IMG/VR virus record: IMGVR_UViG_3300042869_001314
Coordinates: 1-44,714 of that record
Origin: a virus
Length of the DNA: 44,714 nucleotides
Direction: 5' to 3' (one strand)
Shown here: positions 3,907 through 38,390 of the stretch, piece by piece
Layout: the number at the start of each line of letters is the position of its first letter
Position numbering within the stretch: position 1 is the stretch's first letter
Program-made: the position numbers and the translations under genes
The notes under the pieces: generated by a model
Databases searched by the model: none
The model's input: the letters and a program-made list of their open reading frames with translations, nothing else
What the model was told of the DNA's origin: nothing

Positions 3907-4359
3907 TTAAAAGTCAGTATCTACAGTATAAGTACTTGTACCTATCGTCCAGCTTAGAGAATCATTGCTTGTAAAAGTAGTCATTTTTGTTTTAATTTCA
4001 CCCAATAGGCTGCTCAATAGGGTTACATAATCCTGATGCATCATACTAGTTTTCAAAGAAGGAGCAATATTCGTATTCCACCAATTTTGAAACGCAGTAA
4101 ATGCTCCTCCTTCATCGTCATCACCTGATACTCCCCAGCTAAAGAATGTAGCGGCACTAAGTTGATCTTTATAAGGTTCCCAGAAAGATTCATTTTTAAA
4201 CAGATTTTCAATTTTACTAGATAATGATTTTGCTGTTTCTAATCCAAGTGCATTCGGATTCTTTAATTGTAAATTTGAAGGAGCAGATACTCCTGAAACT
4301 GATCCGACAGTTTCATTAATTCTTATAAATTGTTTAAAATTTAAAACGTTTTTCTTCAT
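3907..4359 (-). CDS. Unknown protein with capsid-targeting-like N-terminus
   Basis: The 150-residue product is not recognised. Its N-terminus, MKKNVLNFKQFIRINE, has the F-x-x-F...I-x-E form shared by several unrelated proteins in this window and resembles the gp21-cleaved leaders of T4 internal proteins. The predicted cut would be after E16. The remainder is Ser/Thr/Asn-rich with no Cys and no membrane segment. Upstream, the A/T-rich run is only an imperfect late motif, and one copy of a 24-base inverted repeat lies at 4389-4412. A role as a packaged internal protein is inference. Confidence 0.6.
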   Translation of the reverse strand: MKKNVLNFKQFIRINETVGSVSGVSAPSNLQLKNPNALGLETAKSLSSKIENLFKNESFWEPYKDQLSAATFFSWGVSGDDDEGGAFTAFQNWWNTNIAPSLKTSMMHQDYVTLLSSLLGEIKTKMTTFTSNDSLSWTIGTSTYTVDTDF

Positions 4360-9591: not shown

Positions 9592-11211
9592 ATGAATCCT
9601 AGACAAATAACTTTTAGTTCAAAATCAAGAGAAAAATTAAAAAAAGGAGTAGATCAATTAGCTGATTCAGTTAAGGTTACTCTTGGGCCTAAAGGTAGAA
9701 ATGTAGTATTAGGCCGAAAGAATCAATATGCCATCACTAAAGATGGGGTTAGTGTTGCTCGAGAAGTATTTCTAGACGATCCAATCGAAAACCTAGGAGC
9801 CCAGATGGTAAAACAGGTTGCTTCTAATGTAGCGATGTCCGCGGGTGATGGAACTACTACCGCAACAGTATTGGCTCAATCTATATTGACCAGAGGGATC
9901 AAGATGATTGAAGCTGGATTTGATCCAATGGAATTAAAGTCCGGAATCGATAAAACAATAGAGGTGATCAAGGAATACCTTAATTCTATTAGTCTTAAAG
10001 TTGAAGGCGTAGAACAAATCGAACAGATTGCTACCATTTCAGCCAACGGAGATACTAACATCGGTAAAATTATTGCAAATGCAATGTCAGAGGTTGGATT
10101 TGACGGCGTTATTACTATTGATGATAGTAAAACTCACGAAACCTATTTGCAGACCGTAAAAGGAATGCAATTTAATTCTGGATACCTTTCTCCCTACTTC
10201 ATCAACAGCCTTTCTAAGATGGAAGCTCAATTAGAAGACGTTCTTATTTTTATATACGACGGTAAAATCAAAGGATTGAAAGGTCTAATTAACGTACTCG
10301 ACTATACATCTGCTCAAAAGAGACCTCTTTTAATTATCTCAAATAGTATCGAAGGAGACGCTCTTCAAGCGTTAATCATTAATAAGAGTAATGGTATCAT
10401 TGACGTCTCAGCTGTTAATTCGCCCGGACATGGTCAATTAAGATCTGAGCAATTAAAGGACATCGCAACTGTAGTTGGAGCAACCATACTTTCAGAAATA
10501 GAAGGACAAGACATCTCAAACCTTAATCCTCAATCTATTCCAGCTATCTTAGGATCAGCTGAACGGGTTGTGATTACGGAATCAGACACTACAATTATCA
10601 ATGGAAATGGATCTAAAGACGCAGTCGAAGATCGAGTTTCAGATCTTAAACTACAGATTGAAAATTTAGAAAATGAATCTGAAAAATTAATTGCTAAAGA
10701 ACGCCTTTCTAAATTAGACGGTGGAGTTGCAATCATCAGAATTGGAGCTTATACTGAAGTTGAATTAAAAGAAAAGAAAGACCGCGTTGAAGACGCCTTA
10801 GCTGCTACTAAAGCTGCAGTAGAAGAAGGAATTCTTCCAGGCGGTGGAATTGCTCTCTTTAGAGCCTCGAATTCAGAATATGTTCAACTTGAGCTTTCTA
10901 AACTGGAATTAAAAGAAGGAGAAAAAATAGGATCAGAAATCTTATTAGGGGCTTGCCAATCTCCTTTCATCACAATATTAACTAACGCAGGATTAAATCA
11001 TGAAGTTATTTCTAGAGATCTAATGGAATCTGAATATTCGTTTGGATATGATTCTAGAGAAAATAGATTTATAGACATGATTGAAGCTGGAATCATAGAT
11101 CCTGCTAAAGTTACTCGAACTGCTATCGAAAATGCATCATCAATATCAGGTTTAATGATAACGACCGAATGCGTTTTGATAGAAAAGTCAGATTCTAAAT
11201 CTGATCAGTAA
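9592..11211 (+). CDS. groL: GroEL-type chaperonin
   Basis: This is a complete 539-residue group I chaperonin. The N-terminal nucleotide site reads VTLGPKGRNVVL, with SAGDGTTTATVLAQ (D86) corresponding to the E. coli D87 region. The apical domain runs through SPYFIN and the central domain ends with VEDALAATKAAVEEGILPGGG. The C-terminal Gly-Gly-Met repeats of many bacterial GroELs are absent. T4 brings only a cochaperonin, gp31, for capsid folding. Here a matching GroES is at 19723. The gene has its own promoter and a hairpin terminator, so it is transcribed as a single unit. Confidence 0.96.
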   Translation: MNPRQITFSSKSREKLKKGVDQLADSVKVTLGPKGRNVVLGRKNQYAITKDGVSVAREVFLDDPIENLGAQMVKQVASNVAMSAGDGTTTATVLAQSILTRGIKMIEAGFDPMELKSGIDKTIEVIKEYLNSISLKVEGVEQIEQIATISANGDTNIGKIIANAMSEVGFDGVITIDDSKTHETYLQTVKGMQFNSGYLSPYFINSLSKMEAQLEDVLIFIYDGKIKGLKGLINVLDYTSAQKRPLLIISNSIEGDALQALIINKSNGIIDVSAVNSPGHGQLRSEQLKDIATVVGATILSEIEGQDISNLNPQSIPAILGSAERVVITESDTTIINGNGSKDAVEDRVSDLKLQIENLENESEKLIAKERLSKLDGGVAIIRIGAYTEVELKEKKDRVEDALAATKAAVEEGILPGGGIALFRASNSEYVQLELSKLELKEGEKIGSEILLGACQSPFITILTNAGLNHEVISRDLMESEYSFGYDSRENRFIDMIEAGIIDPAKVTRTAIENASSISGLMITTECVLIEKSDSKSDQ

Positions 11212-15549: not shown

Positions 15550-16047
15550 ATGTCTAAACATCTTAAATACTTAAAAAATTATTCAAAATATCTTGTAGAA
15601 CAAGATATGGGAATGCCCGCTGATCCGGCGGCAGCTGGAGCCCCGCCGCCTCAGATTAAATATAATTTCATATTTATACCCGACGGAGAAAAAGGAAGTA
15701 AAAAATATCCAGACGGCAGCTCATATGAAATTTTTCCATCTTATGAAATTGCTGAAACTGACCTGGATAAATGGTTAGATTCTAACATCGTTTCATCAAA
15801 GGAAAAAGAATTAGCAGACAGCGCAATAAAAGTCAAAAAAACAAGTCTAAAGGACTTTATTTCTGGAAAAAAAGATAAAATATCCCCAGAAGATATCGGA
15901 TTCATTGAAAAATTTAAAAATTCAGTTTCAACCGATATGAAAGGAACCAAAAAAGATGATATTGAAGTAATATTTTCACAAAGCAATGGAACTCCTTATA
16001 CAAATGATCTTGACGTGACTTTCATAATAATTCCAAAAAAGAAATGA
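15550..16047 (+). CDS. Unknown late protein with capsid-targeting-like N-terminus
   Basis: The 165-residue protein begins MSKHLKYLKNYSKYLVE, an aromatic/Lys-rich leader ending in L-V-E, the form cut by the T4-type prohead protease. A Pro/Ala-rich linker follows (ADPAAAGAPPPQ), then an alpha/beta domain of unknown family. It is transcribed from its own late-type promoter and overlaps the metalloprotease-like gene by ATGA, so the two form a late operon. The linker between leader and domain fits a cleaved and packaged cargo protein, but this is inference. Confidence 0.65.
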   Translation: MSKHLKYLKNYSKYLVEQDMGMPADPAAAGAPPPQIKYNFIFIPDGEKGSKKYPDGSSYEIFPSYEIAETDLDKWLDSNIVSSKEKELADSAIKVKKTSLKDFISGKKDKISPEDIGFIEKFKNSVSTDMKGTKKDDIEVIFSQSNGTPYTNDLDVTFIIIPKKK

Positions 16048-16793
16048 TAAAATCTTTTACTGAACATTTATATGAAAACCACGATGAACTCAATGACCTT
16101 ATTCTAAAGTTATCAAGTTCATTTATCTTTTGTTGCGAAAATACAAAAACAGAGGGAGAATATCGAAGAATAAATGGAATCCATATAGAGGACCCATATA
16201 CGTTTGACGCTGAATTCATTATTAAAAAAGAATCCGACCCTAATTTTAAAGAGGACGAGCACTTTCATAAATTAAGTTGGGAAGAATTAAATTTTGATCA
16301 ATATGGATTTGCCATAGATGCTCGAATGAAAATAGATAAAAAGGATACACTTGTTCCTAAAATAATTGTCATTTGTATTATTGACCCTAATCGAGAGCCT
16401 GAATGTTATCAAGAATTACAATACCGATTAACTGACATATTTGCACACGAGATAAATCATCTCGATCAGGTAGGATGGAATCGTAAACCATTCAACACTC
16501 GACCCACCTCAGGACTAGAGAGGCAATCTGCCAAACGGTCTCATTTATACTTTAAGCTGCAGGATGAAGTTGAATCCATGGTTGAAGGAATGTATACTCG
16601 ATCAAAGAAACAGAATGTTGCAATTGACTCAGTTTTTATGAAATACCTTAATCCATTTATAAAATCTAAAAGGATATCGGTTGACGAGTGTCTAGAAGTT
16701 TTAAATATCTGGATAAAATATACTTTAGAAAATTTTCCCGACTCTAAATTTTCAAACAATGAAAAAATAAGATCAATCATTAATTCCATTTAA
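16044..16793 (+). CDS. Zinc-metalloprotease-like protein with capsid-targeting-like N-terminus
   Basis: The 249-residue protein contains DIFAHEINHLDQ, an HExxH zinc-protease motif (H135, E136, H139). Acidic residues downstream (DEVESMVEGMY) could supply the third zinc ligand, as in gluzincins. The N-terminus MIKSFTEHLYE ends in L-Y-E and matches the shared leader of other late proteins here. The gene overlaps the preceding late gene by ATGA. The peptidase family cannot be named. Neighbours suggest it is made late and may be packaged in the head. A purely structural role with a chance HExxH is possible. Confidence 0.65.
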   Translation: MIKSFTEHLYENHDELNDLILKLSSSFIFCCENTKTEGEYRRINGIHIEDPYTFDAEFIIKKESDPNFKEDEHFHKLSWEELNFDQYGFAIDARMKIDKKDTLVPKIIVICIIDPNREPECYQELQYRLTDIFAHEINHLDQVGWNRKPFNTRPTSGLERQSAKRSHLYFKLQDEVESMVEGMYTRSKKQNVAIDSVFMKYLNPFIKSKRISVDECLEVLNIWIKYTLENFPDSKFSNNEKIRSIINSI

Positions 16794-16838: not shown

Positions 16839-17099
16839 ATGAATCAGTTTCAATCATTTAAAAATCAAGTAGAAGAGACCAAAAAATTAGTTTTTGGAGA
16901 AATCGACAAAATCATTGCAGAATTAGAAGAAAACGGAGACGTATCTAAATTTTATGATAAAGGGGTAAAAAGTGCAGGTGGCAGAATTAAAAAAGGAATG
17001 CAAGCTATCAAAAAAGCGATACATCACCCAACTGTTAAATCTCATATGACCGCTCTTCAAACTGCTTCCAAAGAATTAAAAGAAAACATTGGAAAGTAA
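16839..17099 (+). CDS. Histone H1/Hc1-like DNA-binding protein
   Basis: The 86-residue basic protein resembles the small Hc1-like nucleoid proteins of Bacteroidota. The key segment is KFYDKGVKSAGGRIKKGMQAIKKAI (in part: FYDKGVKSAGGRIKKGM, residues about 38-54), matching their FYEKGNKAAGxRxRKGxQ core. The N-terminal part is a helical acidic segment. Such proteins bind DNA non-specifically. It has its own promoter and terminator immediately before gp32, so it is expressed alone. It may coat phage or host DNA. The family link supports a Bacteroidota host. Confidence 0.7.
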   Translation: MNQFQSFKNQVEETKKLVFGEIDKIIAELEENGDVSKFYDKGVKSAGGRIKKGMQAIKKAIHHPTVKSHMTALQTASKELKENIGK

Positions 17100-17222: not shown

Positions 17223-18266
17223 ATGACAGATTTTTTTGACCTACCAGGAGATGCTTTTGTTAAGAAAACAAATTCATCAGAAAAAAAGACAGATCCGAAT
17301 ATCTATAATCCGGATCCAAATGCGCACAACGGATCGTATAAATCGGTTTTTCGATTTTTACCTTATGTGCATGACAAATCTCAGAGTAAATATACAAAAT
17401 ACTCTGCTAAGTTCTATAATCCTTTAACTAAGGAAACTCTTTGGGTTGATTGCCCTTCAAATGAAGGTAAATCTTCTATTCTTTGGGATATAGAAAAAGT
17501 AATTAGAAGTATCAAAGAGGAAGAGCCTGAACTTCATAGAGAATTAGATTCTAGCTTCTCAAGATGGCATAGCCATTTCTCTCCGATCTACGTTAAAAAA
17601 GATCCACAAAGACCTGAATTAGAAGGATCGGTTAAATGGTTTAAGTTTTCTTCTCAAATCAATACTTTGATTGAGGCTCAAATCAGTCCAGAAGAGGATG
17701 AATTGATCGAATCATCAAAGTCAGTAAATCCTTACCATCTTCTTCAAGGAAAAGATTTCTTATGTGCAGTTGGTAAAAAGACTAAAACTTTTAGAGATTG
17801 GAGCAAATCTAAATTCATGGAAGACGTCACTCCATTTATCTTTAAAATTGGAGATAAATCAGTTATCGTAGAAAATAACGAAAAATCAGTTAAATTAGTT
17901 CAAGAGTTTCTTAAAAAGAATACTCCTCTGATTGACGATTATCTTCATAAGTCATGGACTGAAGAGACTTATCATAAGGTTGCAGAATATACGATTTCGG
18001 TTATCTCAAATCGAACAATTTTGAACATGATACTTGACAGAACTAAAGATGAAAAAACCAAAGCCTTAATTTTAGAAAGACTTTCAGGTGCTACTTCAAC
18101 TCCTTCTAAACCGAAAGCTGAAAAATCTTTAGACATCGATGATGATATCCAGTTTAAATCTAGCAATGATCTTCCTTTTGAAGAAGAAGAATTAGTTAAA
18201 ACAAATGTACATGCTTCAGATGAAGAAGACGATGATGAATACGATTCTTTATTTAAAAATCTTTAA
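17223..18266 (+). CDS. 32: gp32-like single-strand DNA-binding protein
   Basis: The 347-residue protein matches T4 gp32 in order and spacing. RFLPY (residues about 43-47) opens the OB core, and IYVKKDPQRPELEGSVKWFKF corresponds to gp32 [20 protein letters not shown]. A Ser/Pro/Lys linker follows, then an acidic C-terminal tail ending DDDEYDSLFKNL. gp32 coats single-stranded DNA and recruits replication and recombination proteins through that tail. The Cys/His zinc site of T4 gp32 (CPVC) is absent, as only a lone CPS remains, so the core appears zinc-free. It heads a unit that includes the FEN nuclease and GroES. Confidence 0.88.
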   Translation: MTDFFDLPGDAFVKKTNSSEKKTDPNIYNPDPNAHNGSYKSVFRFLPYVHDKSQSKYTKYSAKFYNPLTKETLWVDCPSNEGKSSILWDIEKVIRSIKEEEPELHRELDSSFSRWHSHFSPIYVKKDPQRPELEGSVKWFKFSSQINTLIEAQISPEEDELIESSKSVNPYHLLQGKDFLCAVGKKTKTFRDWSKSKFMEDVTPFIFKIGDKSVIVENNEKSVKLVQEFLKKNTPLIDDYLHKSWTEETYHKVAEYTISVISNRTILNMILDRTKDEKTKALILERLSGATSTPSKPKAEKSLDIDDDIQFKSSNDLPFEEEELVKTNVHASDEEDDDEYDSLFKNL

Positions 18267-18580: not shown

Positions 18581-19726
18581 ATGGATCTAATAATAGATGG
18601 TAACGCGTATCTTAACGTTTCTCTAAGCGTAATTAGATCAATGCTCTTTAAAGATAAGAGCATCGGTGCCAAATATTATGTGAACGACATCTTTAACGAT
18701 AACGGTGTAGTTTTAAAAGAACAAGTTAAAGTTCAGTTTAGAAATTTTTGCCTAAACTATCTTCACTCAATCATTGCACCTGTTGAATATGAAATCGATC
18801 GGGTGCATATGGTTTTTGATTCTAGAAGCTGGAGAAAGGAGTATATTAGAAACTTTTTTGCTGATAATGACTTTGAAACTGATCTTGCTCCTTCTGAATT
18901 TGAATACAAAGGAAATAGAAAAAAGAGTTCCGAAGATCATACCTATCTCTTCTTTGATTATTTTCAGCAAGAAATAATTCCAGCTTTAGTAGATAGAAGT
19001 GGAGTAAATTATTATAGAATAAAAGGAACTGAAGGTGACGACATCATTGCTTACTTATGCGAAACAATTAAGAACGATGTGCTAATCTATACAGTAGACG
19101 GAGATATTCGCCAAATGGTTCACTCAGATAACAAAAACGTGATCTTAATTTATCCTAAGCAAATGGCTAAACACAAGAAAATGTTTGTTCCTTCTGAATT
19201 TATTCCAGACGAGGCCGAAGAAGAGGAAGACAACTTCTTTTCTTTAAGCGAGTCACACATTGTCAAATCTAAGATTGATAGAATGATTTCCAAACTTAAA
19301 TCTAAAGAATATGTAGAATATACTGTAGATCCAGTTTTTGAAATATTCGATAAAATATTTAGAGGAGATAAAAAGGATAATGTTCCAAAGATGGATAAAA
19401 TGACTCCAACTAAAAGTTCTAAATTGATTGAGGAAATCCGAGAAAAATACGGAAAATCATCAATTGACTTATTAGATCAACTAGATGAATCCTTTATTTT
19501 ATTCCTAATTGACAGAATAAAATTACTAAACAAGATAAGTGAAGAGACTAAAATTTTAGAAACGAAAAAACATCTTCTGTTCAATACTAAAATTATAAGA
19601 CTGTCTTCTGTGTTTTTTCCAGACGAAGTTAAAGAATCCTGTGTCTCAAATGTAGATATTTCCCGATTTAAAAACTTCAATTTTAGAAAATTTAATGATT
19701 TAAAAAATAACCCACATACAATATGA
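18581..19726 (+). CDS. rnh: RNase H / FEN-type 5'-3' nuclease
   Basis: The 381-residue protein is a T4 RNase H (FEN superfamily) homologue that removes RNA primers and flaps on the lagging strand. Acidic metal-binding motifs are visible: MDLIIDGNAYL at the N-terminus, VHMVFDS, KGTEGDDIIAYL and YTVDGDIRQM. The helix-two-turn-helix motif FRGDKKDNVPKM lies further on. It is longer than T4 RNase H (305 residues), with an acidic insert (PDEAEEEEDN) near residue 210. It overlaps GroES by ATGA. Confidence 0.9.
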   Translation: MDLIIDGNAYLNVSLSVIRSMLFKDKSIGAKYYVNDIFNDNGVVLKEQVKVQFRNFCLNYLHSIIAPVEYEIDRVHMVFDSRSWRKEYIRNFFADNDFETDLAPSEFEYKGNRKKSSEDHTYLFFDYFQQEIIPALVDRSGVNYYRIKGTEGDDIIAYLCETIKNDVLIYTVDGDIRQMVHSDNKNVILIYPKQMAKHKKMFVPSEFIPDEAEEEEDNFFSLSESHIVKSKIDRMISKLKSKEYVEYTVDPVFEIFDKIFRGDKKDNVPKMDKMTPTKSSKLIEEIREKYGKSSIDLLDQLDESFILFLIDRIKLLNKISEETKILETKKHLLFNTKIIRLSSVFFPDEVKESCVSNVDISRFKNFNFRKFNDLKNNPHTI

Positions 19727-20022
19727 AGCCTCTATACGAAAGAGTTTTAATTAAACCAAGAGAAAAAGAAACGACCACTGCTTCTGGAATTATGTTGCCT
19801 GACAAAGCAGTAAAGAGACCTAACATTGGAATCGTTGTTGCCTGCGGAGACGGTTCAACACATAATCCGATGCTAGTTAAACCTGGAGATATTATCATCT
19901 GTAACAGATTTGCAGGTACTGAAATATCTTATAAAGGAGAGAAACATTATATGATTCTATCCAATGAAATCATGGCAATCCTAGATGATCTTAGCGATGT
20001 TTCTTTAGATGAATTTGAATAA
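19723..20022 (+). CDS. groS: GroES-type cochaperonin
   Basis: The 99-residue protein is a genuine Cpn10. It has KPLYERVLIKPREKE at the N-terminus, the mobile-loop segment TTTASGIMLPD (residues 17-27), GIVVACGDG and VKPGDIIICNRFAG. It caps the GroEL ring. T4 gp31 does this job but is highly diverged, whereas this protein looks like a bacterial GroES with an acidic C-terminal extension (DDLSDVSLDEFE). It is separate from groEL by about 8.5 kb and is translationally coupled to the FEN nuclease. Confidence 0.93.
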   Translation: MKPLYERVLIKPREKETTTASGIMLPDKAVKRPNIGIVVACGDGSTHNPMLVKPGDIIICNRFAGTEISYKGEKHYMILSNEIMAILDDLSDVSLDEFE

Positions 20023-20040
20023 CTAAAATAATTACACCAG

Positions 20041-20268
20041 ATGAGCCCAGAACTATACAGAATGTTAACCTCAATTGCTAATGCTGAAATAGATAAAGCT
20101 AGAATGACCCTATATCTATTAGGCAAACACCCTGCAGGAATCGGAGATCATTCAACTGAAGATTTCTATAAAAATGCAGATGAAGCTCTTACTAAATTGG
20201 CAGAAGCTGAAGATAAGTTAGAGTGTTTAAAAAGAAATTATGAATCTGCTTCTCTAGAATTGGTCTAA
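20041..20268 (+). CDS. Small helical protein of unknown function
   Basis: This 75-residue helical protein is not recognised (coiled-coil-like C-terminus ADEALTKLAEAEDKLECLKR). It follows GroES by 18 bases. Its 3' end overlaps by 15 bases the 3' end of a convergent late gene. Confidence 0.5.
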   Translation: MSPELYRMLTSIANAEIDKARMTLYLLGKHPAGIGDHSTEDFYKNADEALTKLAEAEDKLECLKRNYESASLELV

Positions 20269-20694
20269 TAAGTCCATTCCACTTTGGAGAAAATAGCTAG
20301 TTAATTCTTCTATTCCACCATTATATAACTGGTCAAGTTTAACAACTTGACCTTTTTCATTTGTTTTTTGATGTATAACTTCGGCATAATCTTCTCCTGC
20401 TTCTAGAACGATTAAATAGAGTTCCCCATTCCAATTAAAAGAAAAATTTGCAAATTCTCCTGAATTGTCCGCCACCAGATTTTTAGCCCCTAGATCCTTT
20501 AATAATTCTTCAAATTCCATCAATAATAAGGTTTTCCAACCTGCCTTAGGATCTTTTCCTCTTTCTCCCTTTTCAGCCCATTCTGCGGCATCATCGTGGT
20601 CCATCGAAAAATCAAAATCTTGTAATTCACCAAACTCATCAACATAAGCTTCATTGATAAAATTTTTAAATGAAAGTGCTCTTCGGTTCGACAT
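20254..20694 (-). CDS. Unknown late protein with capsid-targeting-like N-terminus
   Basis: The 146-residue acidic protein begins MSNRRALSFKNFINE, then AYVDEFGE. The F-x-x-F-I-x-E leader is the same kind as in other late proteins of the window, with a likely cut after E15. The rest is acidic alpha/beta with no recognised motif. A late-type promoter motif lies 16 bases upstream of the ATG. The gene is convergent with the small gene at 20041. Candidate packaged internal protein, by inference. Confidence 0.62.
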   Translation of the reverse strand: MSNRRALSFKNFINEAYVDEFGELQDFDFSMDHDDAAEWAEKGERGKDPKAGWKTLLLMEFEELLKDLGAKNLVADNSGEFANFSFNWNGELYLIVLEAGEDYAEVIHQKTNEKGQVVKLDQLYNGGIEELTSYFLQSGMDLLDQF

Positions 20695-36551: not shown

Positions 36552-38390
36552 TTAAATAAGATTCATTCCGGAAAGAGATCCTTCCCCATTATACAACTGA
36601 GCTACGCATCCCTTTCCTAGTGTTGCTCGATTATCATAATTATCTATATTAAAAGTGTGATCAAAATAATTAGCAATTCCTGAAATTGTGTTCGAAATTA
36701 ATTTATAAGCCGGAGAAGTTGCACTGAAAAAGAAGTCTAGTATTCCAGCTCCAGCTGCAGCTTTAGGACCGAAAAATTGTTTAATTACGTTAGAAATCAA
36801 TGAAGGAGCCGCAGGTAGTCCAAAAGAAGCGTTTATACCATCGATCATAGATTTCCACTTGTCGGGCCCAGATTTGCTCTTATATCCTGACATTATTCCA
36901 TTAAGCTCACTCTGCTCGTATTCTACCAATCGATTATCTAAGGTCTGTCCTTGAACTGACTTATCTAATTTAATGGTTTTACCTTTAGCACTTGTAAAGC
37001 TTTTATTTAGGGTACCTAATAGCATCTCTTTAGCGGTAACTATATTTCTCTTTAATAACTCAACTCCACAATATTTTAACATTTCTTCAGTTTCATCTGA
37101 AATAATCCATAGATTCCAATTATCTGCTGCTCCAAGAGCATTTGCCTGATTTACTGCCGCTGCCGCTTGAAACCAATTAGAATGTATAGGCTTTAAATTG
37201 AAGGATTCAATAGCAGCTTTAGCTTCCGCATTAGGTTTAGCGTATAGAAGTTCATGAATTTGTCTATAGAATGTCTGTCTTGCTTGAAAGGTTCCTTCAT
37301 ACGGAGCAGTGTTCCCGTTCATCACATTCTTTATAGTTTCTCCATAGGTTGTAGATTTTCCAGTTGAGTTCCAAGAATTATTTGCGGCTTCACTATCTTC
37401 TTTTCCTATTTTAGATTTAACAATATCATTAAACTTTTTAGCTATGGCATCAAGAGTCTCTTTTCCAGCTTGTCCATCTACTCCTATTCCTAATCTTTTT
37501 TGAAGCTCAGATACTGTAATCTTTTGTGGATTTTTAAGATCGTCCTTTGGAAGACTTTCAGTTCCATATAAATAAATTGCAATCGCAGTAGCTGTATCTT
37601 CTCCAAATGATCCATCTTTAGTTAAATAAGAAGTACCTCCGTTACCGTCGACTGACTTGGTTCCCATATCAATCATAAACTGCTGAATTTCTCCAATATC
37701 TCCCGTTATCGGTGATTTTTCATATTTATAATACGCAGGATCTAGAGATCCTGCCGCATATTTAAATTCATCGGATATCAGTTTATCGCTGTAGATTCCA
37801 ATTAATTTTCCTGCGTACGTTAGTGCTCCCCAATGATCAGTTCCATCTGGAGTTTTTATATTTCCTTCTTCAAAATTTTCAGAACCTCGGTTAGGAGTCG
37901 GTCCCAATATAATTTGATTTTTTGGAATTCCATCTGGTATGTTTATTTTTCCAGACGGTTCTACGACCCAGATGTTAGATTTATTAGATATATGTTTTGC
38001 AATATTGCCTAGATATTCACAACCTTTACCTATACATATAATTTTTCCAGTTTTATTTCTCTTTAAATCAGCGACTAGTCTTTCACTTTCACTTCTGGCA
38101 TCTTCCCATCCGGTTATGTGCATTTGTTCACCTCCAGGTCCGCCGATTAATTTAATCTGATCCCCCATCATTTTCTGTCCAGGGCTGGTTTCTCCGTGTA
38201 AGTCTGAGATGATAAAATGGTGGCGCTCTTTCCATGAATCGTCCTCTTCAAACAACCTATTTGAATTCTTAAAATTTCTAAATTCTTTGATAAAATTCTT
38301 ACTTTTAAGATGTGAGGATCTATTTAGACATGATCTTTGATATTGAGAAGATTCATTTAGGTAATCTCTATATGATCTTAAATATTTCAT
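36552..38390 (-). CDS. Large late protein with peptidoglycan-binding-like repeats and capsid-targeting-like N-terminus
   Basis: The 612-residue protein begins MKYLRSYRDYLNE, ending in L-N-E like the other leaders in this window. A second F-rich segment near residue 40 (FRNFKNSNRLFEE) could hold another site. Two segments resemble peptidoglycan-binding (PGBD-1) repeats: residues about 230-275 (IGEIQQFMIDMG, DGSFGEDTATAI) and about 290-318 (VSELQKRLGIGVDGQAGKETLDAI). An Ala/Gly-rich hydrophobic segment lies near 540-560. No lytic catalytic motif was recognised. It is part of the late tail-tube cluster. A packaged or injected cell-wall-interacting protein is an inference. Confidence 0.65.
   Translation of the reverse strand: MKYLRSYRDYLNESSQYQRSCLNRSSHLKSKNFIKEFRNFKNSNRLFEEDDSWKERHHFIISDLHGETSPGQKMMGDQIKLIGGPGGEQMHITGWEDARSESERLVADLKRNKTGKIICIGKGCEYLGNIAKHISNKSNIWVVEPSGKINIPDGIPKNQIILGPTPNRGSENFEEGNIKTPDGTDHWGALTYAGKLIGIYSDKLISDEFKYAAGSLDPAYYKYEKSPITGDIGEIQQFMIDMGTKSVDGNGGTSYLTKDGSFGEDTATAIAIYLYGTESLPKDDLKNPQKITVSELQKRLGIGVDGQAGKETLDAIAKKFNDIVKSKIGKEDSEAANNSWNSTGKSTTYGETIKNVMNGNTAPYEGTFQARQTFYRQIHELLYAKPNAEAKAAIESFNLKPIHSNWFQAAAAVNQANALGAADNWNLWIISDETEEMLKYCGVELLKRNIVTAKEMLLGTLNKSFTSAKGKTIKLDKSVQGQTLDNRLVEYEQSELNGIMSGYKSKSGPDKWKSMIDGINASFGLPAAPSLISNVIKQFFGPKAAAGAGILDFFFSATSPAYKLISNTISGIANYFDHTFNIDNYDNRATLGKGCVAQLYNGEGSLSGMNLI

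Follow-up and report, generated by a model that had tools for sequence, protein, structure and literature searches.

The 44,714-base virus record analysed here (the window, meaning that whole stretch of DNA) is of T4 type and encodes a 249-amino-acid protein (P0001; positions 16044 to 16793, plus strand) that is probably best explained as a T4-type internal head protein. In this reading, the protein would be a zincin metalloprotease with an 11-residue capsid-targeting leader, clipped in the head and delivered with the DNA, cleaving one or more host proteins. Packaging in the phage head is very probable from the sequence, an active metalloprotease is predicted with good likelihood from sequence and model, and the chances are judged to be even that the protease would act in the host and not within the head. 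During prohead assembly, the leader, being like one scaffold repeat of the relatives, would dock into the core, and a gp21-type prohead protease would then cleave after L-Y-E11. The mature enzyme of ~238 amino acids would remain in the head with a co-packaged partner of 165 amino acids and, because of the precedent set by the T4 internal proteins (IP) and Alt, would most likely enter with the DNA and cut host protein(s) early in infection. For catalysis, zinc would be held by H135, H139 and E175, with E136 acting as the base, as suggested by the invariance of these residues and their predicted secondary structure.

The open reading frame, beginning with ATG, was found exactly where the earlier note had placed it, while the opposite strand presented stops throughout. 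The T4-type gene content of the window included a UvsX-like recombinase, a DnaB-like helicase, ribonucleotide reductase, GroEL, GroES and the tail sheath and tube. A Bacteroidota host is likely, since Flavobacterium and Prevotella phages were among the best-covered matches of the tail sheath. Both chaperonins are encoded by the phage itself (GroEL-like, 9592-11211; GroES-like, 19723-20022). The protease gene was flanked upstream by nrdB/nrdA and downstream by the genes of a histone H1-like (Hc1) protein, a gp32-type single-strand DNA-binding protein (SSB), a 5'-3' exonuclease/RNase H and GroES. The gp32-type SSB (17223 to 18266, plus strand; phrog_224, E 1.8e-18) marks this genomic context as a replication cluster and not a late head operon. 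The description of the product as a late-operon protein is therefore not supported, as the gene sits between nrdA and the SSB and the T4 late-promoter word TATAAATA was not enriched in the window (10 copies versus 8.1 expected). The word was also absent from the gap upstream of the partner and protease genes. Neither prohead protease nor capsid genes were found in the 44.7-kb window. The Hc1 neighbour (16839 to 17099, plus strand; 86 amino acids; PF07432, 33.9 bits against a cut-off of 23.5) has no leader, lies directly downstream of the partner-protease pair and is kept beside it in relatives.

The first 10 residues of T4 IPIII are enough for packaging, residues 4 and 7 determining targeting and residues 8 and 10 processing (Kuhn and Thomas, PMC9026906), and gp21 cleaves after L/I-x-E (PMC9026906). 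A leader rule was built from these IPIII determinants ([FY]xx[FYH][LIVM]xE near the N-terminus). Applied to 49 kb of T4 (62 ORFs), it matched ipII and ipIII and nothing else; IPI, which starts MKTFKEFTS, was missed, so the rule is specific but incomplete. In the window protease, the leader MIKSFTEHLYE (16044 to 16076, plus strand), with a predicted prohead-protease cut after E11 (L-Y-E), presented the determinants F5, H8, L9 and E11 at the spacing of the capsid-targeting signal (CTS), with H8 in place of F/Y8. The motif appeared exactly at the CTS positions in 36 of the 37 relatives with an N-terminus in the alignment. In particular, the leader columns of low entropy were S4, F5, F/Y/H8, I/L/V9, N10 and E11 (S4 and N10 being largely kept), K3 was mostly kept, and positions 2, 6, 7 and 12-18 were variable. 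In L007, which at 61% identity is the nearest distinct relative, the leader had decayed, SND replacing [LIV]xE. Residues 1-11 of the AlphaFold2 model had pLDDT values below 50, the leader thus being predicted as disordered.

The motif was also enriched at N-termini across genomes. In the window, it was found in 4 of 49 ORFs, a count that includes the protease gene under study, versus 0.09 expected from internal positions (P 2e-6). In two of the relatives the counts were 9 versus 1.57 expected (P 3e-5; the 207-kb G001) and 6 versus 1.18 expected (G003), and no enrichment was found in Flavobacterium phage Immuto, the only isolate relative (1 versus 0.83 expected). Overall, the capsid-targeting-like leader that the earlier note had recognized from the sequence at the start of the protein was conserved at positions 5, 8, 9 and 11, and a capsid-targeting function is strongly supported by the sequence, with the T4 CTS determinants correctly spaced and kept family-wide. 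Further support came from the several leader genes per genome and from the scaffold repeats and the sister-branch LxE junction described below.

The partner gene (15550 to 16047, plus strand) encodes 165 amino acids with a leader of its own (KNYSKYLVE/Q, the slash marking the predicted cut) and was paired with the protease gene in nearly all relatives with upstream sequence. Its end overlaps the protease start in ATGA, which points to translational coupling. The partner leader (residues 1-17; 15550 to 15600, plus strand) followed the pattern [FY]xx[FYHL][LIVMA]xE in 33 of 34 homologues, with L055 deviating, and its Glu17 was invariant among the 34. The partner matched nothing among phage records, Pfam families or PDB folds and may serve as a regulator or as co-cargo. 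Furthermore, many relatives harboured a third small leader-bearing gene just upstream of the pair (MLNFNQFINES). The motif scan of the window also found two leader-bearing proteins on the minus strand, one of 146 amino acids without a Pfam match (20254 to 20694; leader MSNRRALSFKNFINE/A) and one of 612 amino acids with a peptidoglycan-binding domain (36552 to 38390; leader MKYLRSYRDYLNE/S; PF01471, E 7e-5), the latter adjoining the tail genes. The N-terminus of another minus-strand frame (3907-4359), MKKNVLNFKQFIRINE, is leader-like with two extra residues and falls outside the strict motif. In G001, a leader-bearing Nudix hydrolase (L070:10051-10542; PF00293, E 2e-12) is another possible packaged enzyme, and a 321-amino-acid protein (L068:13644-14609; G001 133644-134609, minus strand) combines the leader FTQFVAE with an HExxH motif. 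The latter was discarded as a family member for having no detectable relation to the window family, and no relatives of it were found.

The scaffold argument was drawn from the relatives G001 and G003, the head genes being outside the window. A gp21-type (S77) prohead protease was present in the records of five out of nine relatives, most of these records possibly being fragments. The S77 ORFs of G001 (659 amino acids, L064:12877-14856; head maturation protease by PHROG, phrog_207, E 2.5e-38) and G003 (661 amino acids, L073:8954-10939) run on into a scaffold-like region of 10-11 tandem 14-residue repeats, e.g. INYSEYIKENLNNS, and contained 10 and 12 copies of the leader motif, respectively, versus ~0.4 in shuffled sequence. 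Because the same motif repeats in this way in the fused protease-scaffold ORFs, the leader resembles one unit of the scaffold repeat, suggesting a route by which the protein could be docked into the core and cut by the same protease.

The main rival explanation shares the packaging and proposes a second maturation protease within the prohead, trimming or clearing the core, the scaffold or the partner, rather than a host effector. Such a role has been suggested for the zincin of one jumbo-phage group (PMC7824862), and the leader-bearing partner, being paired in nearly all relatives, would be a natural co-substrate or regulator. Moreover, the gene occupies one genomic place across the clade, unlike the patchy spread expected of host-range effectors. 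However, maturation is already explained by the S77 protease and its LxE sites, and the protease gene lies away from the head genes, so that a prohead role is considered rather unlikely.

The HExxH motif (H135-E-I-N-H139; 16446 to 16460, plus strand), which had been read from the sequence at residues 135-139, would provide two zinc ligands and the catalytic Glu, and it was the sole HExxH among the window ORFs of at least 60 amino acids. By our own estimate, roughly 1% of proteins of 249 amino acids would have such a motif by chance, so the motif alone is little proof and the weight rests on its conservation. Two scans of viral contigs yielded a family of ~54 loci from uncultured phages, 35-100% identical, while a scan of cellular genome contigs found no cellular relatives. 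H135, E136, H139 and E175 were invariant in the alignment of 40 relatives, and the same four residues were invariant in a second branch that is 22-29% identical to the window protein. The conservation across branches was read from a mixed alignment of 21 sequences, whose invariant columns were D131, H135, E136, H139, R160, Y169, L172, E175, G182, M183, Y201, L202 and W223. Among the acids downstream of HExxH, E175 (16566 to 16568, plus strand) alone was invariant across both branches, being the candidate third zinc ligand of a gluzincin-type site (HExxH...E). The earlier note had pointed to downstream acidic residues in general, which holds for E175 and for none of the others; the conservation of H/E/H among homologues, the lack of which it had named as refuting, was found in both branches.

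The AlphaFold2 model, obtained with 40 sequences, reached a pLDDT of 83 and a pTM of 0.78. HExxH was found in a predicted helix (121-143) and E175 near the start of a later one (173-190), a placement that would be as expected of a gluzincin third ligand. The proposed examination of the zinc site by structure prediction was thus favourable at the level of secondary structure only, with the two elements on two helices. The PDB fold search with this model gave no match at E <= 1e-3, a few weak zincin entries appearing among many unrelated folds and not being counted as evidence, and the PDB profile searches matched no zincin. Neither the protease nor its 40-member alignment had a match beyond chance in Pfam, PHROG or NCBIfam. 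Among the BFVD predicted viral structures, one clear relative was found (A0A6J5SV68, TM 0.87), together with two weaker matches (E about 1e-4), all of them uncharacterised. The assignment as a metalloprotease is consequently supported by the invariance of HExxH and of E175, each placed on a predicted helix.

That the protein is packaged but degenerate, or binds zinc and has no protease activity (e.g. as an inhibitor-type internal protein like T4 IPI-III), is improbable. T4 Ip1-3 inhibit type IV restriction enzymes (PMC12373910), and HExxH is found in non-proteases too (PMC12633501), but in an inactive enzyme one or more of the four residues should have been lost, and E136, both His and E175 were invariant down to 22-29% identity.

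The only isolate match of the protease was the C-terminal part of the 907-amino-acid 'NadR' protein of Immuto (YP_010114595), with 28% identity (tblastn E 6e-7, hhalign E 1.3e-13) and with HExxH and E175 kept; by sequence comparison, the two branches are homologous. A search with this C-terminal part gave 88 relatives; the 80 that were retained form the second branch. The domain was C-terminal in most of these loci, within multidomain proteins of 500-1400 amino acids, preceded by an NMNAT-like part (TIGR00482, E 1.1e-5, under the curated cut-off) and by another HExxH domain, two HExxH domains in one chain being frequent. Directly before the sister-branch domain, a junction xLxE/G[RK]YD was found, with Glu in 58 of 58 cases, L, M or I at P3 in 57 of them, and P2 and P4-P6 variable. 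This junction is suggestive of gp21-type processing, although EGRYD may alternatively be kept for the fold. The standalone proteins L159 and L162 (214 amino acids) had leader-like N-termini ending NE/GRYDK (MKYIKQFENFLINE and MKYIKMFESFTLNE), and many long forms open with the leader-like MNSLVKSLIQPILE, while Immuto-type forms do not, the Immuto form (900-amino-acid class) starting with MSGVAGG and lacking a leader. The frequency of LNE in the sister branch was 1.55 versus 0.58 per 1000 amino acids, a difference that is suggestive only, the sequences being related, and the broader [LI][NTKS]E set was not enriched compared to neighbouring ORFs.

Other members of the sister branch varied in composition. 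The standalone L123 and L131 (208 amino acids) begin at the mature N-terminus (MRNNKYN) without a leader and are possibly non-packaged versions. The Immuto gene (NC_055915.1, KNV73_gp088) is annotated solely as NMN adenylyltransferase, and the C-terminal part of its product holds two HExxH domains, the first of which could not be aligned to the window family and was rejected as a member. In L101, L130, L158, L170 and ~50 more loci, the NMNAT-like part was combined with two HExxH domains and, in some cases, with a nucleotidase-like part. LNE-type sites occurred near the domain borders of the long NMNAT-like/HExxH proteins, which may be packaged polyproteins.

These possible polyproteins bear on a further explanation, in which the substrate of the metalloprotease is its own polyprotein or the partner, and LxE/G[RK]YD is its own site instead of that of the prohead protease. 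The zincins of polyvalent proteins are predicted to process multidomain polypeptides (PMC5512222), in line with the chains of the sister branch that often have two HExxH domains. Against this, the junction is identical to the gp21-type consensus (L/I-x-E, with any residue at P2), the same site terminates the leaders of unrelated proteins without HExxH, and the window protein is not a polyprotein, which makes self-processing more improbable still. Finally, a coincidental leader on an intracellular enzyme that simply belongs to the replication cluster would suit the gene position between nrdA and the SSB and the decay of the leader in L007, but it is very improbable given the motif at exact CTS positions in all but one of the relatives, the leader of the adjacent partner, the genome-wide enrichment in the window and G001, and the location of T4 ipII and ipIII, likewise outside the head-gene cluster.

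The preferred reading, a packaged and injected protease, has partial precedents in several systems. T4 Alt (PMC5512222) and Ip1-3 (PMC12373910) are precedents for delivery into the host, while the N4 vRNAP (PMC12633501) and the polyvalent proteins (PMC5512222) are precedents for a delivered zincin, known or predicted. T4 IPII and IPIII (and IPI) have a leader with the same determinant spacing (YxxFIxE in T4, FxxHLxE here), and IPII and IPIII share the predicted gp21-type cut after Glu and genes outside the head cluster. In contrast, the internal proteins of T4 are small and inhibit restriction, with no described HExxH function, and packaging is proven for T4 only. Alt is a head-packaged enzyme that gp21 processes and that acts on host proteins once injected (PMC9026906, PMC5512222), but it is an ADP-ribosyltransferase with another chemistry, and no sequence relation to it is claimed. 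The N4 vRNAP and the polyvalent proteins, which are delivered together with the phage DNA, contain a zincin-like domain with HExxH (PMC12633501, PMC5512222), and the multidomain habit of the sister branch resembles them; however, they are giant multidomain proteins of N4-type phages, without a T4-type leader and with no sequence match here. The uncharacterised zincin of 'group 1' jumbo phages, for which a part in virion maturation has been suggested (PMC7824862), belongs to another phage group and is set beside the window protein by its description. The C-terminal domain of the Immuto 'NadR' protein is a true relative of the window protease, but it shares its chain with a nucleotidyltransferase/NMNAT-like part and another HExxH domain, and the protein has no N-terminal leader.

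No T4-type packaged metalloprotease was found described in the profile libraries and the openly licensed literature. Within these sources, the statement of the earlier note that no T4 counterpart has been described was borne out, injected HExxH domains being known or predicted elsewhere. Internal proteins bearing a CTS and injected zincins are thus already known, and what is new to us is their combination, its breadth and the polyprotein branch. As a tentative wider picture, which we consider possible though less than likely, T4-type phages, probably of Bacteroidota, may package a set of enzymes in the head by means of leaders imitating the protease-fused scaffold repeat, with a zincin as standard cargo. 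In the sister lineage, a polyprotein (NMNAT-like part, two metalloproteases and sometimes a nucleotidase) would be cut at LxE junctions by the prohead protease into an injected enzyme kit.

Inhibitors and an ADP-ribosyltransferase make up the packaged T4 proteins studied to date, so that a protease that is packaged and conserved would be novel as cargo of a T4-type head. With the leader rule, uncultured T4-like phages can simply be screened genome-wide for proteins that may be injected, and the LxE junction allows the polyprotein idea to be tested in an existing isolate, Flavobacterium phage Immuto. If the packaged protease is real, one would have to ask which host proteins a phage needs to eliminate within minutes of infecting the cell.
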